From the NCBI GenBank assembly GCA_937965735.1, contig CALCKU010000099.1, positions 1 to 39,257 of the forward strand: a stretch of 39,257 nucleotides of DNA. Reading direction: 5' to 3'. This document shows, in pieces, positions 19,829-37,584 of the stretch (position 1 is the first letter of the stretch; every line of letters begins with the position of its first letter). Both the position numbers and the translations under genes were made by a program. The notes under the pieces were generated by a model, which was not told where the DNA came from, did no database searches, and saw only the letters and a program-made list of their open reading frames with translations. This DNA is from an uncultured Caulobacterales bacterium. Lineage in GTDB: Bacteria; Pseudomonadota; Alphaproteobacteria; Caulobacterales; Maricaulaceae.

Positions 19829-20298
19829 AAAATAAATTCAAATATATAGTCAAGTTAATCGACCCCAAAATGATTCTAGAAAATCTTGGCGGCGGCGTTA
19901 GTTTTACGCCAAAGCACATAAATGGTGATAAAGACAAATCACTCTCAAAAGCAGAACTTATTGCTCACGATCGTCAACGTGTCGGGTTTTATGATCTGGA
20001 TTTCAACACGCCATATGACCGAAAAACAGTCTTTAGATTCAAGATCATAAATGATGATGACGATACGAAGTGGGAGTTCAGAGATCCGCCGTTTACCGTT
20101 AACGATATGTCTGCTGTTACCCGCTGTAAACGCAATAAAAAGAACAAAAGAAAAGCTGTATTAGTGGTTAAAGGGCATGGTTCGCATAGCGACACTCAAG
20201 AACTAAAATATACACTACACTACCAAGAAAAGGGCAATCCGAAAAACACATTCGATCACGACCCTGTTATTAGAAATGGAACAATCCCCCCAAGTTAA
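19825..20298 (+). CDS. Hypothetical protein coupled to the TIR gene
   Basis: 157-aa charged, soluble-looking protein with no signal peptide or TM. I do not recognise the family. It is beta-rich by eye (VFRFKIINDDDDTKWEFRDP; then AVLVVKGHGSHSD and ELKYTLHYQEKG), resembling a single beta-sandwich domain with a basic loop RCKRNKKNKRKA near residue 100. Its ATG overlaps the TIR stop codon (ATGA), so the two proteins are probably made in a fixed ratio and may interact. The operon position is the only functional clue. Confidence 0.75.
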   Translation: MKNKFKYIVKLIDPKMILENLGGGVSFTPKHINGDKDKSLSKAELIAHDRQRVGFYDLDFNTPYDRKTVFRFKIINDDDDTKWEFRDPPFTVNDMSAVTRCKRNKKNKRKAVLVVKGHGSHSDTQELKYTLHYQEKGNPKNTFDHDPVIRNGTIPPS

Positions 20299-20434
20299 GC
20301 GAACATGTCAATGCGTCCAACGCTTGTGGGACTGCACGTCGGATCTACACTTTTAGTGAGGCTCGCATTAAAGGTTTTGGAGCCCAGTATAATTGCGCCT
20401 GAAGCCAAATCTGCTGTCGCTATTGAATAGAAAT

Positions 20435-21961
20435 ATGACCTCACTCACAGACAATCTTAAAGTATATGAGAGCGCAATCTTTGCGCTCTCAAAAGAACCT
20501 GACATTTTATTGCATAAACATACAGCCGTTTTGGCCCTTGCAAGAGCGGGGTCTCTCGACTTTGCTTTATCAGAATATATGCGTTTGGGTTTAAACCGTG
20601 TACGCCACCACGAGGATATCATGTCCTTACACGGGCGACTTTATAAAGATTTATACCTATCTCACCAAGGGAAAAAGGCCATAGAACTGGCCCGCCTATC
20701 GGCAGAAAAATACGAAAACGCATATAAGGATTCGGGTGGTTTTTATTCAGGTATAAATGCAGCCAGCATGGCTTTGCTCGGCGGTGTTCCCTGTGAAATG
20801 GTTGAAATGCGCGCCCGCCGCCTCCTAAAGGCTTTACCGGTCATAGAAGATGTTGACCGCGAAGTTTACTTTATTGAGGCAAGTCGCGCTGAAGCCTATT
20901 TTTTACTAGGCGAGATGGACAAAGCCTATGCCAGCCTAAAAAACGCTATTAATTTTGATCCCTTGAATTTTACGGCCCATGCCTCAACCCTAAAACAACT
21001 GGCCATGATTACGAAGGCCCGCAATATAGACGTTAAATGGCTGTCTGAGTTTAGCCCGCCGCGAGCCATACATTTTGCAGGACACATTTTTGGACGCGAG
21101 GGTGAGGTTGAAGAGGTTCCAGTCCTATCTGAGGACACGATAAATCATATAGCCCAACGTGTGACAGAGCTTATTCAAGTCAATGATATTGGTTTCGGTT
21201 TCGGCGCCCTTGCCGCAGGGTCTGATATTGTGATCGCAGAATGTTTACTCGAAGAAGGCGGAGAACTCCACGTTGTCTTGCCAGTTGACAGAGCGCGGTT
21301 TTCAGCCGCCTCGATTAAACCCTATGGTGCCTCTTGGCAAAAACGGTTTGAATCATGTTTAGAAAACGCTAGCTCTATTACCGAATGGGATGGCCTCAAG
21401 CAGTGGCCAGATCATATGTTGCAAGATCGGGCGAGCTTAATGGCTATGGGCGGGGCTATTCGCCATTCGGAAGCCTTGGCGGTTAACGCGGGTCAGCTGG
21501 TTATTTGGGACAAGAAAAAAGGCAAACACGGTACAGCCTATGACGCGCAACTATGGCAAGAAAGCGAGCGGCCACAATATATTCTACCTTATACTTGGAT
21601 TAGAAACGCTCAATCACACGGGGCTCAAGCTTCCAAGTACAAATACCAAACGCTTTTAACGCGCCCCGGCATGGATGAACCCTTGGAATTCGACACTTTA
21701 ATTGACGGGATAAAGGCAGCTCTGGATTTCCGTCAAGAAACACCACGTATTATGCAGGCGCTTTCTCTGAGACTTCAGGGCGATCCAATTGCAGAACCGC
21801 CAACGTCCATTAATCTATTTGCAGAATTACCGGGAACAATTTGCGTTAATGAACTCGCGGCAAATTATATTTCCCTTCATCATAACCGCGACTTCTCCGT
21901 AAGTTTTATGGGACTCAGCCAACAAAACTTACGCGTCTTTGCCCTACAAGAGCGGGGTTAG
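20435..21961 (+). CDS. TPR (TRAFs-binding/DUF4071-like) protein with SLOG-like nucleotide-sensing domain
   Basis: 508-aa soluble protein. Residues about 5-200 are helical repeats resembling the TRAFs-binding/DUF4071 region (LLHKHTAVLALARAGSLDFA; then SRAEAYFLLGEMDKAYASLK). Residues about 210-365 look like a SLOG (DprA/LOG-type Rossmann) domain: HFAGHIFGRE, then GFGFGALAAGSDIVIAECLL, GELHVVLPVDRARFSAASIK and LAVNAGQLVIWD. SLOG domains bind nucleotides such as the cyclic ADP-ribose made by TIR proteins in Thoeris. The C-terminal 140 residues are unassigned. I chose ATG 20435; a TTG at 20393 with a better-placed GGAG would add 14 residues. The gap after the 157-aa gene is 136 nt, so an internal promoter cannot be excluded. 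Confidence 0.75.
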   Translation: MTSLTDNLKVYESAIFALSKEPDILLHKHTAVLALARAGSLDFALSEYMRLGLNRVRHHEDIMSLHGRLYKDLYLSHQGKKAIELARLSAEKYENAYKDSGGFYSGINAASMALLGGVPCEMVEMRARRLLKALPVIEDVDREVYFIEASRAEAYFLLGEMDKAYASLKNAINFDPLNFTAHASTLKQLAMITKARNIDVKWLSEFSPPRAIHFAGHIFGREGEVEEVPVLSEDTINHIAQRVTELIQVNDIGFGFGALAAGSDIVIAECLLEEGGELHVVLPVDRARFSAASIKPYGASWQKRFESCLENASSITEWDGLKQWPDHMLQDRASLMAMGGAIRHSEALAVNAGQLVIWDKKKGKHGTAYDAQLWQESERPQYILPYTWIRNAQSHGAQASKYKYQTLLTRPGMDEPLEFDTLIDGIKAALDFRQETPRIMQALSLRLQGDPIAEPPTSINLFAELPGTICVNELAANYISLHHNRDFSVSFMGLSQQNLRVFALQERG

Positions 21962-22757: not shown

Positions 22758-23549
22758 TTACGCACGCATAGGCCGTTTGACGCGTTCGGGATTTGAAAAC
22801 CTTAGGCTTTCTATCATGGGGCATTGTGTTCCCGAATCTTGGATGAGGCGGAGTAGACTATTGAGGCGGCTCATATTTGGGCCGTCATCCGCTTTTGGTC
22901 GAGCGGTTTGCCTATCACCTGTCTCTATCGGCAAAAACCTTTCAGAAGTCACTGAAACAAGGTCTTCAAAATTGGCACCCGTCGTTTCACAAATACGGCG
23001 CATTTCGGCCTCTAATGTTTGACGCGCTTGACTATGGCTGACTTTCCAAAAAGGAATTAACTCAGCTGTTGATAAATCGACATAATCGACCCCTTCACGG
23101 CTTTCTGGAAGCATGGCTTCCAAGCAAGTGCGCGTGCATTTATCACTTATACCGATCACACCATAAGTCGTCAGTGCTACATCCGATGTGTCTTGCGCTT
23201 GAAACGCTAAACCAAAATCAACACCGATAGTCTTGCCAGAAACACGCTCTAAAATAGGCTTAATCAGATCATTTAGCGACCCTGGCTGTGGTATATAAGA
23301 CAGCAAAATCACTCTAAACCCACGACTTCGTTTTAAAGCCGTTCCAATATTATGTGCAGCCTGCATTAGAGCGCTATGATCTGGCCGCTGAGACAGCGTT
23401 TCTGGCAGTGGAATATGCGCAATTAGAACCGTCGATTTTATCACAAGGCTCTGCAAATTATTAGCAAACTGCACATAAGGCGTACTGGCATTAAAAACAG
23501 CTTTCATCGCTTTGGCTTGAGCAATATGAGGTTGTGTATTCTGTGTCAT
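22758..23549 (-). CDS. Degenerate NDP-sugar dehydrogenase-like protein (core fragment, catalytic residues missing)
   Basis: 263-aa protein that aligns by eye with the middle of UDP-glucose/GDP-mannose dehydrogenases. PQPGSLNDLIKPILERVSGK, then IGVDFGLAF, matches the end of the N-terminal NAD domain; STAELIPFWKVSHSQA, then MRRICETTGANFEDLVSV, matches the central helical domain. The N-terminal GxGxxG Rossmann start, the active-site Cys segment and the C-terminal domain are absent, and the conserved Lys of AExxK is Pro (AELIP). The frame is intact, so it is a reduced paralog rather than a fresh frameshift. It is last in the minus-strand polysaccharide unit, 84 nt after the GT4 gene. A regulatory or structural role is possible; no catalysis expected. 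Confidence 0.6.
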   Translation of the reverse strand: MTQNTQPHIAQAKAMKAVFNASTPYVQFANNLQSLVIKSTVLIAHIPLPETLSQRPDHSALMQAAHNIGTALKRSRGFRVILLSYIPQPGSLNDLIKPILERVSGKTIGVDFGLAFQAQDTSDVALTTYGVIGISDKCTRTCLEAMLPESREGVDYVDLSTAELIPFWKVSHSQARQTLEAEMRRICETTGANFEDLVSVTSERFLPIETGDRQTARPKADDGPNMSRLNSLLRLIQDSGTQCPMIESLRFSNPERVKRPMRA

Positions 23550-23633: not shown

Positions 23634-24944
23634 TCAGAGCGAAAGGCACTCCGCGTCACTGTCTTCGGTGCGCAATCGTAAAAGACGTCCCGCTTTCAAC
23701 TTTTGCAAAAGCCGTATATGGATCGCCATTACGGTTTGCAAAGTGACACTCTGTGAAACTGCGAGATTTTCATAAGCGATATTTTGCGCCTTTAATGGGG
23801 TCTCTAACCCTTCTGAAATTGCGCGAATAAGGTCATCTTGATCTAGCGGTGTAAAGTGAAAGCCCGATAGGCCCTCACGCTCTGTTACATCTATAAAATC
23901 ACCGAGTAATGGATAGGCCGCAGGCGTACCGTAAATCGCGGCTTGATGTAAAACGCCTGAACTGCCTGTCGTCGAGTCGTAATCAAATATAGCGAGTTTC
24001 GCAGAGGTGAAGAAATCTTCGACATCATCCTCGGCAACATAACCATGAAATTGTATATTCGGATCTGATGCATGTTGGGCTTCGAGACTGGCAAGATAGC
24101 CTTTCTGGGCAGGATGATCTGTACCGCCAATAACCAGCTCTATTGGCGCATGGTTTTGCCTACGGTTGAGCACTTGTACAGCATAGATCGTGCGCTCTAG
24201 TTTTTTATAAGTCCCAAATTTCCCCATTGTAATGACCCGGTTTGGACGATCTTCCAAGCTGGGCAAAGGGGTTTGACTCTCCCGCTCAAACGTTCCGTGT
24301 GGTACCATGAAGACATTTTTACTTTTATATTTGGATTTTAAAATATCAGCAAAACTGTCGAGCGTGACAGTCATATAACCACATTTCAACATCAACTTAG
24401 TGATATGCTCACCCGCAAGCTGTACCAGTTTCTGACGTGCCTTATTGCCGCCAATATTGGTTTTTGATAAATCAACGGCATCAATTAAATTATGCATGAT
24501 AACGCCGCTCGCAATGCCTTTCTTTTGCGAAAGCATCGGCGTCAAAAGGCCAAGAGCCGCAGGGATTTCTTTATCGCCAAAAGAGGCTGTTTGCAGATTA
24601 TAGATGACACGATCGACACCTGTTGCCTTTAAAGCATTTAGGATATTCAAAGCACTCACCCATGAATTAAACGTCCAAACGCGCCTAACCTCGACCTTTG
24701 GGCCTAGGTCCAATTCGACGATTGGTCCTTTGGCTCTGTCCGCCAAGACGATAATTTTCTTAACGTCACTGCGTAAGATAAGGGCTTTGACCATATGCAA
24801 GCCATATTCATTCAAAGATCCGGTGGCGGGTGGAAAGGCCGAAACAATGGCTAATGTATCGCCGCTGGGAGGGGCCGCATTGATAGGTGTTTTAGAGGCT
24901 TTCATTGAAGGCGCTGCTGTCAGAGGGAAGGTTTCAAGAGTCAT
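23634..24944 (-). CDS. Glycosyltransferase, GT-B fold (family 4-like)
   Basis: 436-aa cytosolic glycosyltransferase. The N-terminal half opens with TLAIVSAFPPATGSLNEYGL, an acceptor-domain glycine-rich turn. The C-terminal half holds the donor domain: RVITMGKFGTYKKLERTIYA, then NIQFHGYVAEDDVEDFFTSA, and a modified EX7E region around FDYDSTTGSSGVLHQAAIYG, in which the first Glu of the family is replaced by Asp/Ser-rich sequence. Substrates unknown. ATG 24944 follows the glycosidase-like gene by 11 nt, with AAAGG about 8 nt upstream. It belongs to the minus-strand polysaccharide unit and should add sugars on the cytosolic side of the membrane. Confidence 0.85.
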   Translation of the reverse strand: MTLETFPLTAAPSMKASKTPINAAPPSGDTLAIVSAFPPATGSLNEYGLHMVKALILRSDVKKIIVLADRAKGPIVELDLGPKVEVRRVWTFNSWVSALNILNALKATGVDRVIYNLQTASFGDKEIPAALGLLTPMLSQKKGIASGVIMHNLIDAVDLSKTNIGGNKARQKLVQLAGEHITKLMLKCGYMTVTLDSFADILKSKYKSKNVFMVPHGTFERESQTPLPSLEDRPNRVITMGKFGTYKKLERTIYAVQVLNRRQNHAPIELVIGGTDHPAQKGYLASLEAQHASDPNIQFHGYVAEDDVEDFFTSAKLAIFDYDSTTGSSGVLHQAAIYGTPAAYPLLGDFIDVTEREGLSGFHFTPLDQDDLIRAISEGLETPLKAQNIAYENLAVSQSVTLQTVMAIHIRLLQKLKAGRLLRLRTEDSDAECLSL

Positions 24945-24955: not shown

Positions 24956-26725
24956 TTATGGTTTGAGTGAATGTGGGTTTGAAGACATGTGGCTTGAGGA
25001 CTTTATGTCAGAAAAATCTGCGTCCGCAGTTTGAGCCTGTTTTGTAGTCATCGCAGTCATTGAAGACGGAAACGGTGTGTCGGGAGAAAACAACCCAAAC
25101 GACACTGTTGACGCCTTTAGGGTTTCTTTTGATTTTTTATTTTTGAGGGTCTTTAGAGAATATGTTGACGACGTAGCATTGGCATAATTGACAAAAACAT
25201 CTACGGCTGGACGCGGTGCTCCGTCTAAATCAAAGAGACCATAATGGGCTTGTTGTTTTTTACGCCAAGGGCGCCATCCGACAACATCAGAACCAACATG
25301 ATCGAAGTCAAAAAGTGTCCAAAGAAATATACCATCAATCAGGTCTGACTGCGTCAATTGTGTAGTCAAACGTTTGGCCTGTTTTACCTCTCTTAGTCCG
25401 ATAAACGGTACGGGCGTCCAAACCGTTGAACCGAGTTCTGTGATCCAAATCGGACGATTTGGGTAAGCGTCACGCACATTTTGTGTCCGCTCAACAAAAC
25501 CACGAACTGGTTCATAATCATGGTAAGAAATTACATCTAAATCTTGGCCATATTTTATAGCGGCCTCTGACGTTGAAAACCCAATCGTCAACGGGATATT
25601 TGGAAATTCACGCCGAACACTTTGCACCATGACTGAAATCCATCCCATGATGAGGCCTTCCCCGTGAAGCGGCACATCAAGGTTTATTTGGTTTTTCAGA
25701 TCAAGCGCAAGAAGGGCAGGATGGTCTTGGATAAGCGGTAGAATATCCATGAGGTACGCGACATCAGAATCCCAATTTTCAAGACGATAATCAGGCCGCA
25801 AATCAAAGACTGTCGGTATAACTTTTAAACCAGCGTCTTGAGCCATATCCATAAACTCAACTAAACGAGTTTTGGCTTGGGCTTCCGTTTCCATATCTGT
25901 AAAAATCGAATGGGTAAGAAAAATACGCAGGCTATTTCCACCTAAGCTCCGAATAAGGGCCAAATCTTTTTTAATCGTCTCTTTTGGAAACTCAGGCCAA
26001 AAATCGCGCCAGCTTGATTTCGCTGGATAGTAATTGATACCTGCAAATTTTTGTAAGGGCACTTTAGCGACACGTTTAGTTGTCATAGGTTTGCTCTCTA
26101 AAACATCAATCGTGCGTAAAGACCAACCGTCTCGGCGTTTGGCAAATCGTAAGTTCCGAACTTCCATACGGTTCTGGGCAATTCTAAACTGAGGGGTGTC
26201 ATTCTTGTTTTTTGCGGTGTCAGTTTCTGGATCTGCGGTTAAATCAACGCGGTGGCTACGCTCTTCAATATTGACGATGCGTAAATCCCCGTTCACATGA
26301 TTTGGCGTCAAGACCCGGTTCAATCGCAACGTAATCGAACAGGTTCCGATTTTAAGTCGGCATTTTGAATAGGCATCCAGAATACTTGTGATTCCCATCA
26401 GCGCTTGTTCTTCGAGAATATTATTCCCGCCCCAAGACTTTTTCCCTTGTTCAGAAGCCTGTAAAATCCTCGACATTAAGATCATATCTGTATGCGATAG
26501 GGGACGACCATCACTGGGCGGGTTTTCCTGCGGCAACCAGCTATGTGGGATCGGGTCATCCTTTAAAACTAAATGATCTTGTAAAAAATCGTAGGTTTGT
26601 GCGGGCTTAGACAGCGCCTTGATAAAGAGGGCCGCAATAAAGACCAAAAGCACGATCAACAGAACACCAATCAATGTACGGCGAAGACCTGATATGTTGA
26701 GATTAATAGTCAAGTTACGCCCCAA
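24956..26725 (-). CDS. Membrane-anchored glycoside hydrolase-like protein (GH5/clan A-type barrel)
   Basis: 589-aa protein. An N-terminal TM (about 14-38) anchors it, then a 180-residue non-catalytic region, then a TIM-barrel glycosidase-like domain from about residue 227 (FAGINYYPAKSSWRDFWPEF; then LGGNSLRIFL) to about 515. IWITELGS holds the expected nucleophile Glu430 and SYHDYEP the usual His. At the acid/base position, where relatives have DLKNE, this protein has DLKNQ (Gln346; codon CAA), so hydrolysis may be lost or altered. It overlaps the preceding secreted-protein gene by 11 nt. In a polysaccharide locus a role in trimming, release or binding of the periplasmic chain is likely. Confidence 0.8.
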   Translation of the reverse strand: MGRNLTINLNISGLRRTLIGVLLIVLLVFIAALFIKALSKPAQTYDFLQDHLVLKDDPIPHSWLPQENPPSDGRPLSHTDMILMSRILQASEQGKKSWGGNNILEEQALMGITSILDAYSKCRLKIGTCSITLRLNRVLTPNHVNGDLRIVNIEERSHRVDLTADPETDTAKNKNDTPQFRIAQNRMEVRNLRFAKRRDGWSLRTIDVLESKPMTTKRVAKVPLQKFAGINYYPAKSSWRDFWPEFPKETIKKDLALIRSLGGNSLRIFLTHSIFTDMETEAQAKTRLVEFMDMAQDAGLKVIPTVFDLRPDYRLENWDSDVAYLMDILPLIQDHPALLALDLKNQINLDVPLHGEGLIMGWISVMVQSVRREFPNIPLTIGFSTSEAAIKYGQDLDVISYHDYEPVRGFVERTQNVRDAYPNRPIWITELGSTVWTPVPFIGLREVKQAKRLTTQLTQSDLIDGIFLWTLFDFDHVGSDVVGWRPWRKKQQAHYGLFDLDGAPRPAVDVFVNYANATSSTYSLKTLKNKKSKETLKASTVSFGLFSPDTPFPSSMTAMTTKQAQTADADFSDIKSSSHMSSNPHSLKP

Positions 26726-27473
26726 ATTTCAAACTTGACGCGCCTAAGCGGGATTTAATCGGTGCACACGCTTGCACAGGGCGAGGTAATTCTTGCTTAG
26801 CCCCTTTGAATGTAAGTGTGAGCGTATCAATTCCAAAGACATAGCGTCGACATAGCAAAGTCCAACGCGCGCGCCCTTTTATGATCGGTCGGCTTTCAAT
26901 CCCTACATCTCCGTTTAAACTTTTAAACGAAAGCGTTATGATAGAGCCGTCTTCGGGTGTGTTACCGAATATATCTTTTATATGATCCGTTTCAATCACC
27001 AACCGATCAAAGACAGGGTCATAAACGACCTGAGATGGAATAGCCCCTACATCGCCCGAGGTTACAAAGACAGACACAGCTTTGGATACCAGCCTATCGG
27101 TTTTGGCCGTAAAAATTTGATCGCCAGAGATCTCACCCGCAGGAATAAGAAACCGGGCAAGCCCGCGTGTCGTTGTAGCCGTACGGGTTTTTTCAACCCC
27201 TGCTCCCGCATGAATGAGCGTAACCTCTAATCCATTTCTAAAACTCAAACCGACGCCGCTCCGCACCTCGACATCGACAAAAATAGTGCCCTTAGGTTCA
27301 ACCGTTTCAGGCCCCGCGTAAACCGTTATGGAGCCAGCACGGTTATCCATTAACCGTCCCAAACTATTGGCAGGCGCGACTTGCGCCGAAAGCTTAGGCG
27401 CAAAACATATAGCCAAACCCATAACGCCCAAAAGGGTCATCATCTGTATTTTTGATTTATATAAAATTCTCAT
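26715..27473 (-). CDS. Secreted protein of unknown function, first gene of the polysaccharide unit
   Basis: 252-aa protein with a signal peptide: basic start MRILYKSK, hydrophobic MMTLLGVMGLAICFA, and likely cleavage after PKLSA (near residue 30). The mature part is beta-rich and looks like two Ig/FN3-like sandwich domains (SITVYAGPETVEPKGTIFVD; then DGSIITLSFKSLNGDVGIES). No catalytic motif and no lipobox were seen. It starts 28 nt downstream of the predicted sigma-54 transcription start and overlaps the glycosidase gene by 11 nt. Its place at the head of the operon suggests a periplasmic partner of the glycosidase-like protein or of chain export. Confidence 0.75.
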   Translation of the reverse strand: MRILYKSKIQMMTLLGVMGLAICFAPKLSAQVAPANSLGRLMDNRAGSITVYAGPETVEPKGTIFVDVEVRSGVGLSFRNGLEVTLIHAGAGVEKTRTATTTRGLARFLIPAGEISGDQIFTAKTDRLVSKAVSVFVTSGDVGAIPSQVVYDPVFDRLVIETDHIKDIFGNTPEDGSIITLSFKSLNGDVGIESRPIIKGRARWTLLCRRYVFGIDTLTLTFKGAKQELPRPVQACAPIKSRLGASSLKFGA

Positions 27474-27511: not shown

Positions 27512-27526
27512 TGCAAAGCCTGTGCC
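27512..27526 (-). promoter_or_regulatory. Sigma-54 (RpoN) promoter for the minus-strand polysaccharide unit
   Basis: Read on the minus strand: GGCAC, five bases (AGGCT), TTGCA. This matches all ten core positions of the consensus GGCAC-N5-TTGCW, including GG and GC exactly 10 bp apart. Transcription should begin about 12 nt past the GC, near 27501, leaving a leader of about 28 nt before ATG 27473. Confidence 0.75.
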
Positions 27527-27557
27527 TTAAAAACAGCCCTGATTTTCACCGCTTTGA

Positions 27558-27642: not shown

Positions 27643-27658
27643 CGGCCTAAATATTGCC
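27643..27658 (+). promoter_or_regulatory. Possible sigma-54 promoter for the plus-strand polysaccharide unit
   Basis: CGGCCTAAATATTGCC has GG (27644-27645) and GC (27656-27657) exactly 10 bp apart and a full TTGC at -12. The -24 element GGCCT differs from GGCAC at two positions, so this match is weaker than the one facing left. The start of transcription would be near 27669, which favours ATG 27688 as the start codon. Confidence 0.45.
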
Positions 27659-27687: not shown

Positions 27688-28971
27688 ATGCCTAAATTGC
27701 AAAAAATGACGACTAAAAACATTCAGTCAAATATTGATGAAATCAGATTAAAAGAACAAAAGCGGGCTATGCCTGATCGCGCCGCACGCCTTCAGATCGT
27801 CGAGCCGAAACACACAGCAGGCAGCGCAAATACAACACATTTAGGCAGCGAGCGCCGAAGCGCTACAACTTTAGCGCAACCCGTTACAAGCATTATTATA
27901 CCCTGTTACAACGAAGCGGCGCGGCTTGATGTTAACAGTTTCATTGAATTTGCATTGCAGGAAAAACATGTAAAACTTGTCTTCATTGATGATGGTTCCA
28001 AAGACACAACCATTCAGGTCTTAACCAATATTTTAAAAGCCGTTCCAGACCGCGTAGACGTTTTAATAATGAAAAAGAACCAAGGCAAAGCCGAAGCGGT
28101 GCGCCATGGCCTCAATTTCGCCGCCAAACGCGGTGACGATTTAATTGCATTTTTAGACGCTGATCTCGCAACACCTTTAAATGCCATTTTGGACTTTATT
28201 TCTGTTGCCAAACGCTTACCCGAAATAGATGTCGTCTTTGGTTCGCGTTGCGGCGGCATGGGACGTCGCGTATACCGAAAAATATACAGAAAAGGTATTT
28301 CTTTAATTTGTGCATTTTTAGGACGCCTTGCGACAGGCCTCCCCATACGCGATACACAATGCGGGGCTAAACTCTTTCGTAATAACACAGCCTTTCGTCG
28401 TAGCTTATCTGAGCCTTTCAAAGCGGGTTGGCTCTTTGATATTGAGCTTTTTTTGCGAATTTCAGATCCGAGTCTTTCACAAAAGAAAAGGTTCTTTGAA
28501 TTTCCTGTCATCCAATGGACTGAAATCCCGGGTTCAAAAATTAAAGTCAGAGATATTTTCAAAAGTGGTTTGAAGATGCTGAACCTTATTTTTAACCAAT
28601 GGAAAATACGGCGGCGCTTCCAACGCCGAACGGATAATACCCAATTTGGTGCCGTACAAAACCTGGTCTGTGGCACCTATTTAACGTATCCAGATCTCTT
28701 ACGGTTTATTCAAAAAATTGATCCCGAAATTCGAAGAGTGCAATTTGACCTCTCGGCCTTAAAAGGCCTCACGCCTTCATTGATGACCGCCTTCATTGAA
28801 TTATGCGATGGCTTAGACGCGGCGGGTCATAACATTGAAATTCGCCTACCCAATAGCGGGCCTATCACCGAAACAGCTGAAAGAAGCGGCTTGTCTGCGC
28901 TGTATGATTGTCGGCGCGTTCAAAAACAAACGCCATGTTTCAATAACTCTACAATAGGCCCTGCAAAATGA
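27688..28971 (+). CDS. Family 2 glycosyltransferase fused to a C-terminal STAS-like domain
   Basis: 427-aa protein. After a 60-residue basic tail comes a dolichyl-phosphate-mannose-synthase-like GT2 domain (about 65-310): TSIIIPCYNEAARL, VFIDDGSKDTT, the metal-binding AFLDADLATP (D157 and D159), and DTQCGAKLFR with AGWLFDIELFLR. The last part (about 340-410) reads as a STAS/anti-sigma-antagonist fold: RRVQFDLSALKGLTPSLMTA, then AAGHNIEIRLPNSGPITETA and GLSALYDC. The usual phospho-Ser context (D-S-x-G) is not conserved. GGAG lies 6 nt before ATG 27688; an ATG at 27670 would leave almost no leader. Its stop overlaps the flippase ATG (ATGA). It may transfer a sugar to a lipid carrier or extend the chain. 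Confidence 0.82.
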   Translation: MPKLQKMTTKNIQSNIDEIRLKEQKRAMPDRAARLQIVEPKHTAGSANTTHLGSERRSATTLAQPVTSIIIPCYNEAARLDVNSFIEFALQEKHVKLVFIDDGSKDTTIQVLTNILKAVPDRVDVLIMKKNQGKAEAVRHGLNFAAKRGDDLIAFLDADLATPLNAILDFISVAKRLPEIDVVFGSRCGGMGRRVYRKIYRKGISLICAFLGRLATGLPIRDTQCGAKLFRNNTAFRRSLSEPFKAGWLFDIELFLRISDPSLSQKKRFFEFPVIQWTEIPGSKIKVRDIFKSGLKMLNLIFNQWKIRRRFQRRTDNTQFGAVQNLVCGTYLTYPDLLRFIQKIDPEIRRVQFDLSALKGLTPSLMTAFIELCDGLDAAGHNIEIRLPNSGPITETAERSGLSALYDCRRVQKQTPCFNNSTIGPAK

Positions 28972-30581
28972 GCCCGCGCACACAAAAGGTAAAACCTAAA
29001 ATCCGTATGCAAAATAAAATGCGGCCCGCATTGTTTTTGTTTGTGTCTGCCAATATTGCCAATGCCGCAAACCTTCTCTTTAACATGATATTTGCCCGTC
29101 TAATGGGGCCAGAGGCATTTTCAGACTTGACGTTTTTACTGACTCTCAAGCTCGGGATTTTATGCGTTCTTTCTGCCTTTCAATTGGCGCTTTCCCAATA
29201 CACAGCTAAAGCTTGGTTTGGTAAGAACAAAGACACAAGAAAATCACAAATTGAAACGTTTGCGGCCCTTATAACCCTAAAAAGCCTATGGTTTTCAGTG
29301 CCGCTTATGCTGATTGCCTTTTCTTTGGCAGAAGGTTTTGCGCGCGCATTTCAGTTTCAAGACTTAAAAGCGCTTTTAACATTGATGATAATTCTTCCCG
29401 TTCTCTTTCCCATGATCGTCTATCGCGGCCTTGCGCAAGGGCGAATTGATTTGCCACGGATCATCGGATCCGTTCAGGGTGAGTGGGCCGTTCGCTTACT
29501 GGGCGGATTGATTTTATGGACATTAGGCCTCGGTCTAATGGGCATTTCTATAGCGGTCGTTTTGTCTATTCTAACAGGTTGCCTCTTATCCATGCGCCGC
29601 AATGACGTCAAATCTTTGGCCTCTACAGCGCGTTTAAAAACAATAAAACCTTATTCCTGTACAGGCGCGAAGCCTGTTGCCTCGCCCCCCGTCAAAGCGC
29701 CCAATATCTTTAAAGCGACAACCCCGTTCCTTGCCTTGCAATTTGCCCAAGTCCTGATTTTGGACGGTGATATTATTCTCGCCAAAGCCAATATGAATGC
29801 AGAACTGGCAGGCTATATTGCCGGGCTTATGCTTCTTCAACGTATTTTCTTTTTTGCCTTTTTATCTTTTTCGTCCCTTTTACTCCCCGTCATTTCAGCC
29901 AAGATTGAAAAATCAACGGGCACGCCTTCACACATAAAAAACGAAAATAAGGTAGACCGCCCATTAAAGACAGAAAAACACAGGTCACAACACGCGATGC
30001 TAGAGGGAAATCCATCAAAACAATCCAGTAAGGTTTATGACAATGTCCGAAGAGGCCGCTCAGACCTTATGATGATGCTTGGCGGTGTGATGGCAATTTC
30101 TGTACCTGCTCTCTTTGCCTTATATTTGATACCCGCTTTAGGCGTGACCCTTATTCTTGGCCCTGAATTCGCATCGGTTCAACCGCTCGCCGTAATTTCA
30201 GGGGCGACAGGGGCGCTTTTTACACTCACGCATTTATGTACCGTTTACTGGCTTGCTAATGGTCAAACACGCATGGCCTATGTCCTCTTAGTCTTAGCCG
30301 TAGTTCAAGTTATGTTATTAGGGATGAGCGCCGCCACGGATCCAGACTTTACGGTCACAGAATTTGCGACCCTTAAACTTTCATTACAAAGTCTCATATG
30401 TGCGGCATTGTTGTTTTATACATTCATAGCCACCACAAAAAGGCGGACGCCCTCAAAATCCTTTCTCCAAAGACTCTTTTCACAAAGATCTTTGCGTTTT
30501 AGAAAAGCGAGTCTAAAAAACACCCAAGCGCTTGTTTCAAACGCAGGCCCAAAACGTCCGAATATTTGTGACACCACTTAG
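28968..30581 (+). CDS. Wzx/MATE-like polysaccharide flippase
   Basis: 537-aa polytopic membrane protein of the MVF/oligosaccharide-flippase type. The N-terminus FVSANIANAANLLFNMIFAR, then LMGPEAFSDLTFLLTLKLGI, is the classical opening of Wzx-like proteins, and about 12 hydrophobic segments follow. A hydrophilic loop of about 45 residues (about 325-370, rich in K, E, S, R) interrupts the middle, probably facing the cytosol. It should move lipid-linked saccharide made by the locus across the inner membrane. Its ATG overlaps the GT2-STAS stop, and its 3' end nearly touches the start of the next gene, so the three are one operon. Confidence 0.85.
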   Translation: MSPRTQKVKPKIRMQNKMRPALFLFVSANIANAANLLFNMIFARLMGPEAFSDLTFLLTLKLGILCVLSAFQLALSQYTAKAWFGKNKDTRKSQIETFAALITLKSLWFSVPLMLIAFSLAEGFARAFQFQDLKALLTLMIILPVLFPMIVYRGLAQGRIDLPRIIGSVQGEWAVRLLGGLILWTLGLGLMGISIAVVLSILTGCLLSMRRNDVKSLASTARLKTIKPYSCTGAKPVASPPVKAPNIFKATTPFLALQFAQVLILDGDIILAKANMNAELAGYIAGLMLLQRIFFFAFLSFSSLLLPVISAKIEKSTGTPSHIKNENKVDRPLKTEKHRSQHAMLEGNPSKQSSKVYDNVRRGRSDLMMMLGGVMAISVPALFALYLIPALGVTLILGPEFASVQPLAVISGATGALFTLTHLCTVYWLANGQTRMAYVLLVLAVVQVMLLGMSAATDPDFTVTEFATLKLSLQSLICAALLFYTFIATTKRRTPSKSFLQRLFSQRSLRFRKASLKNTQALVSNAGPKRPNICDTT

Positions 30582-30591
30582 AAAAGGACAT

Positions 30592-33500
30592 TTGTCAGAC
30601 ATTACAATGCGCCCAAGACTTTGGGTGTATCTTGCAATCGTCTTAGGGCTTGTCTTTCATGCAGCCCTTCTGCCCTACACAGTGGGGCAGACTTACGACT
30701 CTTATATCCATATGTTCTTTGGCGATCATTATAACCGCTCATGGTTTGATCCGTGGGAACCCCGTTGGTATACGGGTTTCACAGTGACTGCCTATCCGCC
30801 CGGAAGTCATCAAATTCTGGGACTCTTGATCCATATTATGGAGATGAAAAACGCCTTTATTGTCGCGCAACTCTTAGCCGTCGTGCTGTTGATTATCGGT
30901 GTTTTTCGCTTTAGTCGCCTTTGGGTTAGCGCCCAAGCCAGTGCGAATGCCGCCTTGATTGTCGCGTTTTCAACGAGCATTTCTGAGACCCTACACATTT
31001 TTGGGCAATTGCCGACAACGCTCTCCATTGCACTGTTTTTAAACGCTACACCGCATATATCGGCCTGGATTAAGGATGGTAACAAACGCGCTATCCTCCC
31101 CGCTTTAATTTTCACATCAGCCGCAACCTCCGTTCATCACGTCACCCCGATTTTTGGTACGATATTCTTTGTGGCGCCCTTGGGCGTTGCGGCATGGCTT
31201 GCCGAAATGCGTGAAAAACCACTCCCTGAATTCGCCTTAAAGGCACATCAAAATTCAGAAAAACACAAATTGACAAAGCAAGATATTTGGCAGTGGCTTC
31301 AATGGGCTGCGCCTGCGCCCATGCGCGGCATAGCAATCGGTATGGCGATGTTATGCTTGATTATAGTGGTCGTGTTTCCCTACTGGCATTGGTCAATTAC
31401 AGACCCCATCACCCAAGTGAGTATTCCCCATGGCAGTCGAGAAAACTTTCTCAAACGCCCAAATTTAGGGATTATGTTTTTTGTTATCCCGTGGGGCTTT
31501 CTCATTCTGGCCTTGCCCTTTGTCGTTTACAAAACAGCAACGACAACTCTGTGGCCGCTTGGCCTGTCTGTGCTCGTAACATTTATCCTCGGGACAGGCG
31601 GAACAACCCCGATTGCAGAGCTGATCTTAGGGCCAGCATTTTGGATTTTAACGCTTGATCGATTTACGTTTTGGTCGAGCCTTTTAATCCTGCCCTTTGC
31701 CGGTCTGGCCGCAGAGAGTTTACGAGTCGGGCGGGCAAATCAATGGCTCACACAAGCCTTTGGCATACGGATGACACGCCTAAGCCTTGGTTTGTTTGTT
31801 AGCCTGTTTGCACTGGCCAGTGTATTTACCGCCCTCATTCCAACCTTTCGCCCAACCCAACCTGACTTTGTTGACCCTTCGCCCATTGCAACATTTATGG
31901 ACGAAGATGAGCATTTTAAATGGCGCTATTTGACACTCGGCTTTGGTGATCAATTTGCCTATCATAGTGCTAAAATCAACGCTGAATCTGTGGACGGAAA
32001 TTATCATTCGGCCCGTCGACTCCCAGCCCTTATGCAATATTCTGTAGAGCGTTTGGAAAATTCAAAATATTCGGGCGTTCCTGGCCTCGCTTCACTCGGG
32101 CAATTTTTAGTCAATGCAGAAAAGTTCAATCTAAAATTTGTTTTTTCAAATGATGAATTTTATGATCCGCTTCTGCACTATACAGGATGGAATCCAGTCA
32201 CCCGTCTACGAAACAATGTCGTGGTATGGGAAAAAAATGACATATCGCCTTTGCCACCTATTCGCGCGCGCCGAACCTTGCCACGGTACCAAGTCTTGAT
32301 GTGGGGTACGATTCCAATTTCAGCTCTCGCACTCGCCGCAATTTTATTAACATATCTTGCCTTGAGAGGGCGGCTCCTAGGGGATGAACCCGTTAAAGGG
32401 GCGGTAGACGTTACACGTCCCGAACCGTGTGTGCCCCGCTATAGGGTTTGGGTATTGCGCGGTGCCTGTGTTATTTTCTGTCTTGGCGGCGTTTTATCCG
32501 CTGTAAAAGTTTTTTCGCTCAAAAACATTCCACAAACGCCTGAAGCCGTTATTCAAACCTATTACGGCGATATTGATTTTAGAAAAATGCGTGACGCGTA
32601 TAACAAGCTTGCCCCGCGCAAAGACTTACCCTTTGAGGCGTTTATCAAAGAACAAAGGCTCACGGGTGGCCTGCTGCCCTCATATGGTAAATTAACAGAC
32701 GTTTACATAGGACAAGCCCTCAAGACAGAGGAACCGATAGGCCGTAATCAGCGTGAAAAAACCATCACACTCCCGATAACTTTACGGTATTTGACCGCAT
32801 TGGGCGTCAAAAAAGTAACCCGTCTTACAACCCTCATCAAAGTCCCCAATGGCGAATGGAAAATTTTACACAAAAGCAACACAAAGTCGCTTTTGGACAC
32901 AGTAAGCTTGAGGGGGCAAGCGTTTGAATTCATCGATTTAAAAACCCTAAGAAGCACTTTGTCGGGTAGCCCCAATCTGGAAGTCATTGCCCGCCCTATA
33001 TTCAAGGTTTCAGATGCCAGACTCGTTTATAATGACCAACGGTTTTACGTTGTCGGCGAAATCGAAAACACGTCTGTCTTTCCAGCTTGCGGGAAAATTA
33101 CGTCGACGGCATTGGATGAAAATGCAGACCCTATGCTTGTCCAAGCTTCAGGGCGTATTGGCGCACATAGGCTTTTGCCCGGCGAGCGTTCACCTTTTCG
33201 AATTGACTTTGAAGGGTTTATGAAAATTTCCGACTCTTACTTGGGTGACGCTTTTGATCCCGACCAGTTCAGCTTGCCTCAATTTTCAGCCCCCCCACAG
33301 TCTGCGAGTTTGGATGTATGGGGCACGGTTTGCGCCACCCCGCGTTATAAATCTATAAAAATTGATCGTAGTCAGGTTGTCGAGATCGGAGACCGTCAAG
33401 TCCTAAAACTCGCAGTAACCAATACTGGGACAAAAATCGTGAGCACGCTTCAATTCAAAATGGGTATTTATAACCCTCAAGGCGATTTGGTCTGGGTCGA

Positions 33501-33726
33501 TGCAGATTATTTGCAAACGAACCTTCTGCCTGGGGAGAAAAGAGAATTAAGCCTGCCCCTCAACGCACAAGCCTTTACCATGCAATATGGGGAGGTCTAT
33601 CCCATTACGGTCAACGGAATTGCCAAGCCAAAAGAGCGGTTTGAAATGCGGTCTGAGTTACCAATGAAAGACGGCTACACATTGCGTTTAAATTATGATG
33701 CAATGGTTTATGAGCCCCTACGCTGA
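30592..33726 (+). CDS. Large GT-C-like membrane glycosyltransferase with periplasmic C-terminal domains
   Basis: 1044-aa protein. The first 400 residues have about 10-12 TM segments. The first periplasmic loop has acidic and aromatic residues in a GT-C pattern (TYDSYIHMFFGDHY near 34-47; then PRWYTGF and AYPPGSHQ at about 66-74), reminiscent of polyprenyl-phosphate-sugar transferases of the PMT/STT3 type. Two TMs near 585 and 635 follow, then a soluble half with an NTF2-like stretch (TPEAVIQTYYGDIDFRKMRD) and two FxLYD-like beta domains (VYNDQRFYVVGEIENTSVFP; VVEIGDRQVLKLAVTNTGTK). I chose TTG 30592, preceded by AAAAGGA; ATG 30607 is the alternative. It could be the polymerase or a decorating enzyme of the polysaccharide. 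Confidence 0.7.
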   Translation: MSDITMRPRLWVYLAIVLGLVFHAALLPYTVGQTYDSYIHMFFGDHYNRSWFDPWEPRWYTGFTVTAYPPGSHQILGLLIHIMEMKNAFIVAQLLAVVLLIIGVFRFSRLWVSAQASANAALIVAFSTSISETLHIFGQLPTTLSIALFLNATPHISAWIKDGNKRAILPALIFTSAATSVHHVTPIFGTIFFVAPLGVAAWLAEMREKPLPEFALKAHQNSEKHKLTKQDIWQWLQWAAPAPMRGIAIGMAMLCLIIVVVFPYWHWSITDPITQVSIPHGSRENFLKRPNLGIMFFVIPWGFLILALPFVVYKTATTTLWPLGLSVLVTFILGTGGTTPIAELILGPAFWILTLDRFTFWSSLLILPFAGLAAESLRVGRANQWLTQAFGIRMTRLSLGLFVSLFALASVFTALIPTFRPTQPDFVDPSPIATFMDEDEHFKWRYLTLGFGDQFAYHSAKINAESVDGNYHSARRLPALMQYSVERLENSKYSGVPGLASLGQFLVNAEKFNLKFVFSNDEFYDPLLHYTGWNPVTRLRNNVVVWEKNDISPLPPIRARRTLPRYQVLMWGTIPISALALAAILLTYLALRGRLLGDEPVKGAVDVTRPEPCVPRYRVWVLRGACVIFCLGGVLSAVKVFSLKNIPQTPEAVIQTYYGDIDFRKMRDAYNKLAPRKDLPFEAFIKEQRLTGGLLPSYGKLTDVYIGQALKTEEPIGRNQREKTITLPITLRYLTALGVKKVTRLTTLIKVPNGEWKILHKSNTKSLLDTVSLRGQAFEFIDLKTLRSTLSGSPNLEVIARPIFKVSDARLVYNDQRFYVVGEIENTSVFPACGKITSTALDENADPMLVQASGRIGAHRLLPGERSPFRIDFEGFMKISDSYLGDAFDPDQFSLPQFSAPPQSASLDVWGTVCATPRYKSIKIDRSQVVEIGDRQVLKLAVTNTGTKIVSTLQFKMGIYNPQGDLVWVDADYLQTNLLPGEKRELSLPLNAQAFTMQYGEVYPITVNGIAKPKERFEMRSELPMKDGYTLRLNYDAMVYEPLR

Positions 33727-33814: not shown

Positions 33815-35329
33815 TTAAGCGACAGACCAGATAGTAGCCTCTCTAGGCTGTTCAAAATCGTCACCCTCCCCTTCATCAGACCAACTCTCACGTTTCCTGT
33901 AAATTGTCGAAGGACTTAACTCTAAAATCTTAGACGCTTTCGGTATACTCCCACCGCACGCAGAGATCGCCGCTTCAATAATTTGCCGCTCTAGCTCGGC
34001 CATAGGGCGGTCAAGATCAATGGTTAAAGGCTTACGGATTGTCGGACGCGCCAGGACACTGGCATCCGGGTCGGACACCGGGCCAATAGAGCGGTAGGGT
34101 TGATATGCGCTTTCGTCACGCTGAGTGCTCTCAATATTGGGAATCACCAGATTATTCGATAAGTCCAACATATCGGCATTGATTTCGGTACCGCTATTCA
34201 TAATCACGGCTTTGCGAATGGTATTTTGGACTTCGCGGATATTTCCAGGCCAGTCATAATTTAGTAATGCTGATTTCGCCGCATCCGTTATATGGTCAAA
34301 GGCTTTACCCTCTTCTTTGGCGTAAACTTGCATAAAATGCTCTGCCAGTAAGATAACATCATCTTCGCGCTCTCTAAGTGGCGGCAAGGTCAAAGACAAC
34401 ACATCTAAACGGTAAAATAAATCTTCACGAAAGCGCTTTTCAGCCACTTCAAGTCGCGGATTTCGATTCGTCGCACAGACAATCCGAACATCCACATCAA
34501 TTAATTTATCACTCCCGACTTTTTTAATTTTACCGGTCTGTAAAAAGCGTAAGAGTTTCGCTTGCAGCCCAATATCCATTTCACAAATTTCGTCTAAGAA
34601 TAGAGTTCCGCCATCAGCGCGAAATGCCGCCCCGTCACGGGCCTCTTGCGCGCCCGTATAAGCCCCTTTAACGTGGCCAAAAATTTCCGACTCCATTAAA
34701 TCCATCGGAATAGCCGCACAGTTAATCGCCACAAAATTTTGCCCTGAACGGCCACTGATTTCATGAATAGATTGCGCGCAAACCTCTTTACCCGTGCCCG
34801 ATTCACCCGTAATAAATACGGGTGCTTTTGAATGTGCGATATTTTCGATCATCGTATAAATCGCCAACATCGGTATTGAATCGCCGACAAACCCTCTTAT
34901 TTTCCGAGGGGCCATATCCTTTTTAAGCACTTTAACCGTTGTCCAAAGATCCGTACGCTCAAGTGCGTTTTTTACGCTCGTAACTAAGCGCTCAGGCGCA
35001 ACCGGTTTTATCAGAAAGTCATAAGCCCCGTTCTGCATGGCCTTTACCGCAGTATTAACCGAGCCGTTTGAAGTCACCACGATAAAGGTCACGGGGATTT
35101 TTCGTTTTTTAACAGCGGTCATAATTTCTAGACCGTTCATGTCGGGCAGTTGCAAATCCAATAAGACAGTGGAGAACTGACCTGTAACAAGCTTATCAAT
35201 GGCCTCTGCGCCAGTTTGCGCAAGATCCGATTCAATACCAGCCTTTTGCATATGCAAAGTATGCATGCGTGATACAGATAATGTATCTTCAACAATCAGT
35301 ACTTTAGATGAGTGGTTACGCCCCGTCAT
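33815..35329 (-). CDS. LuxO/SypG-like sigma-54-dependent response regulator
   Basis: 504-aa NtrC-class regulator. Receiver domain (about 8-120; VLIVEDTLSVSRMHTLHMQ, phospho-acceptor Asp58 in LLDLQLPDMNG). AAA+ domain (about 145-375) with Walker A GESGTGKE, the sigma-54 contact loop GAYTGA and Walker B GGTLFLDEI. Fis-type HTH at the C-terminus (SIPKASKILELSPSTIYRKR). The AAA+ block (FITGESGTGKEVCAQSIHEI; EICEMDIGLQAKLLRFLQTG) is very close to what I recall of Vibrio LuxO. The gene starts 8 nt after the hybrid kinase, so the two are co-transcribed. The LuxO-type sites and sigma-54 promoters at 27.5 kb are its probable targets. Confidence 0.93.
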   Translation of the reverse strand: MTGRNHSSKVLIVEDTLSVSRMHTLHMQKAGIESDLAQTGAEAIDKLVTGQFSTVLLDLQLPDMNGLEIMTAVKKRKIPVTFIVVTSNGSVNTAVKAMQNGAYDFLIKPVAPERLVTSVKNALERTDLWTTVKVLKKDMAPRKIRGFVGDSIPMLAIYTMIENIAHSKAPVFITGESGTGKEVCAQSIHEISGRSGQNFVAINCAAIPMDLMESEIFGHVKGAYTGAQEARDGAAFRADGGTLFLDEICEMDIGLQAKLLRFLQTGKIKKVGSDKLIDVDVRIVCATNRNPRLEVAEKRFREDLFYRLDVLSLTLPPLREREDDVILLAEHFMQVYAKEEGKAFDHITDAAKSALLNYDWPGNIREVQNTIRKAVIMNSGTEINADMLDLSNNLVIPNIESTQRDESAYQPYRSIGPVSDPDASVLARPTIRKPLTIDLDRPMAELERQIIEAAISACGGSIPKASKILELSPSTIYRKRESWSDEGEGDDFEQPREATIWSVA

Positions 35330-35337: not shown

Positions 35338-37584
35338 CTATGCGGCTTTAACATGTCCTTTAAACGCCTCTTTTACCTGAACTAACGCTTCTTCTCCCAT
35401 CCATACGGATTTATGCGCATTATGCGTCGCTTCAGAAATACTACCACTGATTGCATTATAATTCGTTAATTCTGCAACTTCACTTAAGGGCATACATCCG
35501 AATGTTGCCGCTAAACCCTTTAAAATATGGCTATGCTTTTGTATGGCTTCAATATCGGATGCGTTTGCCGCAATGCCCAAAGCCTCAATACACACCCGTA
35601 AATCATGCGTGAATTGTATCTCAAGCGATGCAATATCCTGCGGCTCAAGCCATTCAAATATTGACGCCAAAATTTCACTGTCAAACAAGGATAAATCTGC
35701 AGATTGTGTAATGGAAATATGTGTATGTTTGAGTTGCGCGGATTTTATTGCATAAGAAATATGTCTTAAAATATCAGGCTTTGAGACAGGTTTAATTAAA
35801 ACGGCATTCATGCCTGCCTCAAGATAGCGTGCTTTATCTGCCTCGGACGCGATTGCGGTTAAGGCCAATACGGGCAGGTTGGCGACCTCGCCCTTCATGG
35901 TTCTAATCCGTTTTGTTGCGAGCGGGCCGCCCATAACAGGCATTGAAATATCCATAAGCGCTACGTCAAAAGGCGCCGCCTGTATAACTTCCAACGCTTC
36001 TTGGCCGTTATTAACAACTGTAACATCGGCCCCCAACGACTCTAGCATGCGTGACAAAATCATTTGATTGGTCTTGTTATCATCGGCCAGAAGTATGTTT
36101 ACCCCTGCAATCGTATCAGGACAATCGGGAGTCGCCGCTTCGCTATGAGCGCGCCCCTCTGCGGTATCTGCAGAGGGGTATATTGTGGAGTTGGGGGTCA
36201 TTTTTTTTATCCTTTGTGCCGATTTATCTCGGTCTTTATTTGTTGATGTTGCGCCCCCACAGCTAGCATCAACTTGTTTAAAGGGTACAGAAATCCAAAA
36301 ATTAGATCCCTGACCTGTCCCGCTATTGACGCCAATTAAGCCGTCCATCATACGAATAAGCGTTTTTGAAATCACCAAGCCTAAACCGGTTCCGTCTTGA
36401 CTGCGGCGATCACGGTCTACGGTCTTTTGACCCTCAACTTGATAAAATTCTCCAAAAAGACGACTTTGAGCGTCCATTGAAATTCCAACACCCGTATCTT
36501 TGACAACACAGGTGAGTTCAACCGTACCGTCATCTGATATTTGCGTTCCCGCCCAAAGCGTAACACTGCCTTTATGGGTAAATTTGATCGCATTACTCAC
36601 AAAATTCATCAAAACTTGTTGCAAACGCGGCAAGTCCCCCATGACCGTAACGGCATCTACATCCGCTATATCGCGATAAAGTTTCAATCCCTTTTTCCGA
36701 GCCGAAGGTTCAAAAAGCGCATAAACCTTGTCAAATATGTCCTTAATATCAAAGGGACGCGCCGTGAGAAAAAGCTTCCCTGAGGCTAATTTTGTATAGT
36801 CTAAAATATCATCCGTAATCTCTAACACGGCCAAAGCCGCGTCTTGCCCAGTCGTGACTAGCGCCCGTTGATTAACGTCTAAATCCGTTTCCGAGAGCAT
36901 GTCTAACAACCCTGAAACTGCCGTAAACGGGGTTCTAATTTCATGGCTCATCGCAGCCAGAAAGCGCGTTTTCATCTCTGTCCGAGTCTTCAGCTCGGCC
37001 ATTTCCTTATCTTTTTCAGCCCAATATAACTGGCGCTCGGAAACATCACGCATGAAGACACAAATATGCCCTGCACTTTCTTTGACACATTTGACTTGCA
37101 CAGGAATACAAAAACCATCCTGCCCAAGAATATTGAGCGTATTTGAATATTCATTATGGGGCGGCCAGTAAGTCTCTGCACATATCCAATCAGAGAGCGC
37201 TTCTCTTTGCTCAAGATCGGCTAACAGTTCTGTCATCCACATTGTTTTTTTCAAAGCGGTATCCGACGGTACATCAAACGCAGAGTTCAACGACAAAAGC
37301 GTTTGTGCCGATGGGTTGGACATAAGAATACGTCCAGATTTGTCTAAAATTAAAACGGGGTCAGGGGCGCTTTGAAATGCAAAAGCGGACATATATCCTA
37401 AATCAACTTTTTGAGTCTCTATTGTGTTAGGGTCAATTGTAATCAAATTACTTTTCGATGCAGGATTGGTTTTTACATCCTGTGACGTGTGTGTTTGAAA
37501 GTTTCTATCATACACATTTGACGGCCCTTTGACCGCACTCACGGATATTTCCGTGTCGTATTGATCTGAAACTTTTACAGGCAT
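35338..37584 (-). CDS. Soluble PAS hybrid histidine kinase with receiver and HPt domains
   Basis: 748-aa kinase with no TM segment, so it should sense a cytosolic signal. A PAS domain (about 67-180; SAPDPVLILDKSGRILMSNP) is followed by HisKA with His214 in AAMSHEIRTPF. The HATPase has its N-box at NFVSNAIKF (N331), then DTGVGIS and DGTGLGL. The receiver (about 495-615) has Asp545 in ALMDISMPVMGG. The C-terminal HPt (about 635-740) has His686 in HSHILKGLAATFG. All residues for a four-step His-Asp-His-Asp relay onto the adjacent response regulator are intact. It is the first gene of a two-gene operon. The domain order parallels SypF of Vibrio fischeri, minus its membrane sensor. Confidence 0.94.
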   Translation of the reverse strand: MPVKVSDQYDTEISVSAVKGPSNVYDRNFQTHTSQDVKTNPASKSNLITIDPNTIETQKVDLGYMSAFAFQSAPDPVLILDKSGRILMSNPSAQTLLSLNSAFDVPSDTALKKTMWMTELLADLEQREALSDWICAETYWPPHNEYSNTLNILGQDGFCIPVQVKCVKESAGHICVFMRDVSERQLYWAEKDKEMAELKTRTEMKTRFLAAMSHEIRTPFTAVSGLLDMLSETDLDVNQRALVTTGQDAALAVLEITDDILDYTKLASGKLFLTARPFDIKDIFDKVYALFEPSARKKGLKLYRDIADVDAVTVMGDLPRLQQVLMNFVSNAIKFTHKGSVTLWAGTQISDDGTVELTCVVKDTGVGISMDAQSRLFGEFYQVEGQKTVDRDRRSQDGTGLGLVISKTLIRMMDGLIGVNSGTGQGSNFWISVPFKQVDASCGGATSTNKDRDKSAQRIKKMTPNSTIYPSADTAEGRAHSEAATPDCPDTIAGVNILLADDNKTNQMILSRMLESLGADVTVVNNGQEALEVIQAAPFDVALMDISMPVMGGPLATKRIRTMKGEVANLPVLALTAIASEADKARYLEAGMNAVLIKPVSKPDILRHISYAIKSAQLKHTHISITQSADLSLFDSEILASIFEWLEPQDIASLEIQFTHDLRVCIEALGIAANASDIEAIQKHSHILKGLAATFGCMPLSEVAELTNYNAISGSISEATHNAHKSVWMGEEALVQVKEAFKGHVKAA

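Follow-up and report, generated by a model that had tools for sequence, protein, structure and literature searches.

Dolichyl-phosphate mannose synthase (DPMS), ArnC and GtrB are glycosyltransferases that carry transmembrane helices at the C-terminus, and some DPMS forms without a membrane anchor exist. The STAS domains of MlaB and of SulP-type proteins are the cytoplasmic part of a membrane machine. The joining of a glycosyltransferase to a STAS domain is already known in kind from Anabaena all4160, a glycosyltransferase that is described to have its STAS domain at the N-terminus and is associated with the heterocyst envelope polysaccharide (PMC8256260, PMC4390870); no other such fusion was found in the open-access literature. 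In the syp locus of Vibrio fischeri, the STAS protein SypA is encoded first in a polysaccharide operon controlled by a sigma-54 response regulator (SypG), LuxO is described as well, and SypA is phosphorylated at Ser56 and has a dedicated SypE (PMC4517449, PMC10162802). A MATE-family flippase has been proposed in three-component extracytoplasmic glycosylation systems (PMC11127046).

The window analyzed here is a stretch of 39,257 nucleotides from an uncultured bacterium of the Caulobacterales (Maricaulaceae; GenBank assembly GCA_937965735.1, contig CALCKU010000099.1). One of its open reading frames almost certainly encodes a family 2 glycosyltransferase (GT2) followed by a complete STAS fold (Table 1). 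When compared with all4160, this protein is similar in that a glycosyltransferase is joined to a STAS domain in a setting of polysaccharide synthesis, whereas its STAS domain is at the opposite end and all4160 is cyanobacterial; the likeness is drawn from a description of all4160 that does not give its glycosyltransferase type. The GT2 fold and motifs are shared with DPMS (PDB entry: 5mlz), ArnC and GtrB, which are also the best sequence and structure matches, but in place of their transmembrane helices the fusion has the STAS domain at its C-terminus. The gene order GT2, flippase-like, GT-C-like, in which the labels are tentative, resembles that of the three-component systems (polyprenyl-phosphate transferase, flippase, GT-C), whereas no STAS domain is part of the description in PMC11127046, as far as it goes. 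As in syp, a STAS domain is encoded first in a polysaccharide operon near a sigma-54 response regulator of the LuxO type; unlike SypA, which is a separate, phosphorylated protein, the STAS domain is fused here and its phosphorylation site is a proline. The fusion STAS domain can be aligned with Escherichia coli MlaB, but the MlaB and SulP domains have no link to a glycosyltransferase, and MlaB has D-T where the fusion family has x-P. New here are the domain order, the type of enzyme, the lost phosphosite and the sigma-54/LuxO-type control.

Table 1. Features of the GT2-STAS locus, with positions in the window
Feature	Position	Strand	Length	Remarks
GT4 glycosyltransferase	23634..24944	-	436 aa	PF00534 E 3.2e-10; 57-64% identical counterpart in 15/15 loci
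Hydrolase-like protein	24956..26725	-	589 aa	One N-terminal TM; PF11790 E 6e-4, below cut-off
Small secreted or anchored protein	26715..27473	-	252 aa	First gene of divergent operon
Sigma-54-type -24/-12 motif AGGCACAGGCTTTGC	27513..27527	-		Towards divergent operon
LuxO-type enhancer site TTGCGAAATGCAA	27580..27592	+		One mismatch to TTGCAWWWTGCAA
Sigma-54-type -24/-12 motif CGGCCTAAATATTGC	27643..27657	+		Towards GT2-STAS
GT2-STAS fusion protein	27688..28971	+	427 aa	ORF; alternative start 27670; full-length orthologues in 16/137 family genomes, own included
GT2 catalytic domain	27871..28617	+	residues ~62-310	PF00535 E 3e-20; structural matches DPMS, ArnC, GtrB; hydropathy 0 TM
STAS-fold domain	28654..28923	+	residues ~323-412	Orthologue Pfam, predicted fold, profile comparison
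Degenerate phosphosite T362-P363-S364	28771..28779	+		Canonical D-S-x; Pro at Ser position in 17/17 copies
Flippase-like polytopic membrane protein	28968..30581	+	537 aa	Overlaps GT2-STAS stop by 4 nt; 15/15 loci
GT-C-like membrane protein	30532..33726	+	1064 aa	Large soluble C-terminal part; 8 hydropathy peaks; 15/15 loci
LuxO-like sigma-54 response regulator	33815..35329	-	504 aa	NF041946; PF00158, PF00072, PF02954
Hybrid histidine kinase	35338..37584	-		PAS, HisKA, HATPase_c, receiver, Hpt

The start codon of the fusion gene at 27688 is preferred over the alternative one at 27670 because of the GGAG just upstream of it and the sigma-54-like motif at 27643-27657, from which transcription is predicted to start near 27668 on the -12-to-start distance that we assume. 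The N-terminal 60 or so residues are mostly of low confidence in the structural model. The GT2 domain is matched by PF00535 over residues 68-231 with 73.3 bits (cut-off 23.3) and has the motifs DDG (101-103), DxD (157-159) and DTQCGAKLF (222-230), with D101-D102-G103 and D157-A-D159 being invariant in all 16 full-length sequences. When these 16 rows are used in a PDB sequence search, the best matches are archaeal DPMS (5mlz, 2.8e-11), GtrB (sll0501, 7.4e-11) and ArnC (1.2e-10). The structural comparison by VIA-align also places DPMS, ArnC and GtrB in ranks 1-15 (Z 16.8-20.2), which supports the original prediction of a DPMS-like enzyme; the three stand only modestly apart from the remaining GT2 enzymes, as soluble glycerate-type synthases follow at Z 16.7 and below. 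There is no hydropathy peak anywhere in the GT2-STAS protein, and since it is without a C-terminal transmembrane anchor it is not classified as GtrB or ArnC, only as an enzyme that would work like them, in the manner of the DPMS forms without an anchor. As judged from sequence and model, the GT2 part would charge a polyprenyl phosphate of the membrane with a sugar, these being the probable acceptor and donor.

The window protein by itself has no STAS match, neither in Pfam, where its C-terminal domain gives no match at all, nor in the PDB sequence search, and routine annotation would therefore miss this domain. A phmmer search with the domain of the orthologue L133 found nothing either. Among the 17 orthologous domains (from 16 genomes, one of which has two copies), PF01740 is matched by 13 at E<=10, the best at 3e-4 with 21.0 bits against a gathering cut-off of 22.6, and the cut-off is passed by none of the nine domains inspected singly, nor by the domain of a further locus, L174. 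The AlphaFold model of the C-terminal domain folded alone (mean pLDDT 70.6, pTM 0.65) has the strands alternating with helices of a STAS fold, and all chains in ranks 1-10 of the Foldseek search of the PDB bear a STAS domain (best E 9.9e-3, none below 0.001). In the VIA-align comparison, STAS-bearing chains also fill the leading rows, with RsfB at the top (Z 10.5; 2.2 Å over 91 residues), followed by an antagonist of M. paratuberculosis (Z 10.2), RsbS (9.9) and SulP STAS domains (9-10); a 98-residue chain of MlaFEBD is found at Z 7.2. An outcome unrelated to STAS, which would have spoken against the prediction, was thus not obtained from either structural search. The profile-profile score against five known STAS pieces, one of which (the MlaE-fused piece of the same genome) is cut or poorly aligned, is 34.0, whereas 200 column-shuffled controls have a mean of 9.4 and do not exceed 17.8.

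It could be argued that the C-terminal region is not a STAS domain and that the model, which was built from two sequences only and has the mean pLDDT mentioned above, matches this fold spuriously. Ferredoxins also head the PDB profile search (E 0.053, ~34 residues matched), with the STAS chains TM1442 and RsbS following at E 0.52 and 0.57. Against such an artefact stand the independent agreement of the Pfam matches of the orthologues, the profile comparison far above the shuffles and the STAS-headed structural list, so that this alternative is hardly credible; the ferredoxin matches are considered fortuitous, as they are contradicted by the fold and by the other profile tests, and a ferredoxin identity is rejected. 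The predicted fusion of a GT2 enzyme with a STAS domain is therefore borne out by PF00535, the PF01740 matches of the orthologues, the predicted fold and the profile-profile comparison. The extent that had been proposed for the STAS part, about 70 residues within 335-427, is to be corrected, as the domain begins earlier and is somewhat longer (Table 1).

Other GT2-STAS fusions are found close to the window's lineage. In the family sample, 16 of 137 genomes, the window's own included, have a match at E<=1e-20, which in one genome is split over two contigs; in the order sample 10 of 398 genomes match, one of them (G707) outside the family. In the class sample (1/385) and in the phylum sample (1/398) only the window's own genome is found, and the same holds when the C-terminal domain alone is used as the query in the 385 class genomes. 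In a contig scan for related loci, of which 80 of 555 were kept, the domain is present in L041 only, which is from a Caulobacterales metagenome-assembled genome. The idea that GT2 relatives in other phyla have a separate STAS protein nearby was discarded, as this result is from a domain-profile hmmsearch over the ORFs of all 80 loci; those relatives that come from Anaeromyxobacter, Pirellulales and Polyangiaceae stop after the glycosyltransferase domain. As judged from these samples, the fusion is lineage-restricted, with the absences being soft because the genomes were chosen automatically and are partly incomplete.

The identity to the window protein is 64-67% for the glycosyltransferase part and 26-36% for the STAS part. 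For the STAS part of the pair L121-L123, dN is 0.056 and dS 0.503, giving a dN/dS of ~0.11, and for L121-L127 dN/dS is ~0.19; many other dS values are saturated or undefined. In close pairs with a usable dS, the dN/dS of the STAS part is higher than that of the glycosyltransferase part, yet clearly below 1, and by this measure the STAS part is under purifying selection.

The alignment with E. coli MlaB, which has V-D-T-G-G-L in the phosphosite loop, shows that the STAS domains of the fusion family read x-P-S-(V/I/L). The position of the phosphorylatable Ser or Thr is a proline in 17 of 17 copies, the next serine is invariant and the aspartate is kept in four of the 17. No copy therefore has the phosphorylatable residue of the D-S/T-x-G signature of SpoIIAA/RsbV-type antagonists, in agreement with the original prediction that the D-S-x-G context is missing. 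In the window's genome, which is ~89% complete, no SpoIIE phosphatase (PF07228) is found at E<=0.01. The same genome has eight matches to HATPase_c_2 (PF13581), and the only one over the cut-off, which lies at a contig edge, reads as the end of a histidine kinase; on inspection of this match, no clear RsbW-type kinase was recognized. The other STAS domains of this genome are two of the SulP type and one fused to MlaE. The proline in all copies, the lack of a SpoIIE phosphatase match and the histidine-kinase nature of the sole over-cut-off HATPase_c_2 match make classical partner switching by phosphorylation of the fusion STAS domain unlikely, and it was rejected as a reading of this locus.

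Helix 2 begins with an invariant motif, P-S-x-x-T, which accounts for three of the 10 invariant columns of the domain (P47, S48 and T51). The start of helix 2 is the partner surface of SpoIIAA-type domains, and it is possible that regulation still acts on the STAS domain, with an outside kinase or a STAS-binding regulator toggling the enzyme, perhaps via the invariant Ser364 or without phosphorylation. The proline at the aligned phosphoserine position and the genome survey described above argue against this, and it is considered rather unlikely. The STAS domain may also be an allosteric sensor of a nucleotide, a sugar nucleotide or a lipid that tunes the enzyme, as GTP is described to be bound by SpoIIAA (PMC8256260) and ligand binding has been proposed for SpoIIAA-like proteins (PMC2954212). 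However, the loop that is degenerate in this family is the one for which phosphate binding has been proposed in STAS domains, which makes a ligand sensor quite unlikely.

The fusion gene is part of a divergent cassette of six genes, with the genes of the GT4 enzyme, the hydrolase-like protein and the small secreted protein on one side and those of the GT2-STAS, flippase-like and GT-C-like proteins on the other, and all 15 loci read from relatives (L174 among them) preserve the order and orientation of the six genes. The flippase-like protein has nine hydropathy peaks (11 in its orthologue of locus L140) and no sequence match in Pfam or the PDB. The GT-C-like orthologue of L140 matches PF10131 (PTPS_related) at E 1.8e-4, below the cut-off, and in the order sample the GT-C-like protein is found in three of 229 genomes, all three having the fusion. 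An assignment of the cassette to Wzx/Wzy or Pel was rejected, there being no family match. Beyond the cassette, L140 has genes for an outer-membrane protein (OEP), an MBOAT acyltransferase and a 560-aa protein, which suggests that the product of the cassette is an exported, possibly acylated polysaccharide. The OEP gene comes after that of the GT-C-like protein in L140 (11341-12816) and in L145 (14428-15900); in the window there is none between 33726 and 33815, where the regulator gene is next. The hydrolase-like protein of genome G027 (L140:2788-4695, minus strand) has ~110 extra N-terminal residues before the transmembrane segment, unlike the copy in the window. Next to the cassette, on the minus strand at 22758-23549, a 263-aa protein is weakly similar to nucleotide-sugar dehydrogenases (TIGR03026 E 1.5e-12, under the cut-off); it has no counterpart in the 15 relatives' loci.

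The STAS domain occupies the place of the membrane anchor in the nearest solved relatives, and both genes that come next code for membrane proteins. Coupling of synthesis to a regulator or a membrane partner, as was proposed originally, is therefore the most likely role of the domain. The mechanism that we put forward, and to which we give slightly less than an even chance as a whole, is as follows. The cytoplasmic GT2 enzyme would charge a polyprenyl phosphate of the membrane with a sugar, and the STAS domain, having lost its phospho-switch, would take over from the C-terminal transmembrane anchor of the solved relatives and serve as a constitutive dock to membrane partners within the cassette, of which the flippase-like and the GT-C-like neighbour are the best candidates. 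The lipid-linked sugar would then be made where it is flipped and used, with the enzyme feeding a flippase and a GT-C protein in the manner of the three-component systems, and would serve to build or decorate the exported polysaccharide. A two-component signal would drive expression, with the LuxO-like response regulator binding a central enhancer and firing two divergent sigma-54 promoters, so that the amount is set by transcription. Of this, the domains, the fold, the proline at the phosphosite, the conserved cassette and the promoter and enhancer motifs are observed, whereas the sugar donor and its acceptor, the partner of the dock, the polysaccharide and the binding of the regulator are inferred.

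Several points count against this mechanism. The flippase-like and GT-C-like proteins are named from weak family matches or from none, the PF01740 matches of the STAS part stay below the cut-off, and the shuffled controls for the promoter motifs take no account of shared descent. The STAS part also diverges much faster than the glycosyltransferase part, which would not be expected of a tight interface if the partner did not change along with it. The fast divergence would be easier to reconcile with a STAS domain that is a self-association or solubility module only, having no specific partner, and GtrB structures carry titles that refer to tetramer and octamer volumes. The retention of the domain in 17 of 17 copies and in L174, its invariant residues and the dN/dS values below 1 in the usable pairs are less compatible with such a module, which we consider unlikely.

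The anchor-replacing dock is proposed together with transcriptional control, and the region between the two arms of the cassette is predicted to be a compact bidirectional switch. A facing pair of sigma-54-type motifs is present in 16 of 16 regions (the window, L139-L152 and L174), spaced by 114 bp, or by 115 bp in the window and L152. Between them, a sequence that differs from the published LuxO element TTGCAWWWTGCAA (PMC10162802) at no more than two positions is present at the same offset in all 16 regions and is exact in four (L144, L146, L148 and L174). Both promoter motifs reach a score of at least 7 in 60 of 3200 shuffled segments, a null that ignores shared descent, and at least one enhancer site with up to two mismatches occurs in 175 of 3200; the TTGCA repeats had been spotted in the window before being tested. 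The two-motif score test missed L142 and L152, which have a weaker score or a cut region, whereas the spacing-anchored scan found both motifs in all 16. As the loci are related, this layout is a case of conservation and not of 16 independent finds.

The regulator scores 536 bits with the NCBIfam LuxO model NF041946, below the cut-off of 800, and it is therefore referred to as LuxO-like and not as LuxO. It has the motif GAYTGA, at a position where GAFTGA is usual. Of the 15 fetched stretches, eight contain the regulator (>=45% identity) and six the kinase (30-38% identity), and in both cases the remaining copies may lie outside the stretches; a weak match in L141 (31% over 77 aa) was left out of the count.

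The protein target of SypA was described as unknown in 2023 (PMC10120452), and so was its level of action in 2024 (PMC11112999). It is conceivable that the fusion is a 'Rosetta stone' in which stand-alone STAS proteins such as Vibrio SypA target a lipid-phosphate glycosyltransferase or its membrane complex, and in which the change from serine to proline freezes an always-active state like that of the unphosphorylated protein (compare the active SypA-S56A), leaving control wholly to the LuxO-like sigma-54 switch; this extension is speculative and we hold it to be improbable. The fusion with a lipid-phosphate glycosyltransferase under comparable LuxO-like sigma-54 control nevertheless points to a concrete step at which STAS domains may control polysaccharide loci, and it suggests that a STAS domain can substitute for the membrane anchor of such enzymes.

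Two further features were observed. In genome G463 (L134, L137) the complete cassette is present twice (loci L146 and L147), and the STAS parts of the two copies are 61% identical, as compared with 95% for the glycosyltransferase parts. In the window, positions 18092-21961 encode a protein with a TIR domain (TIR_2, ThsB_TIR) and, after it, one with a TPR-S sensor domain, an arrangement that recalls conflict or defence modules.
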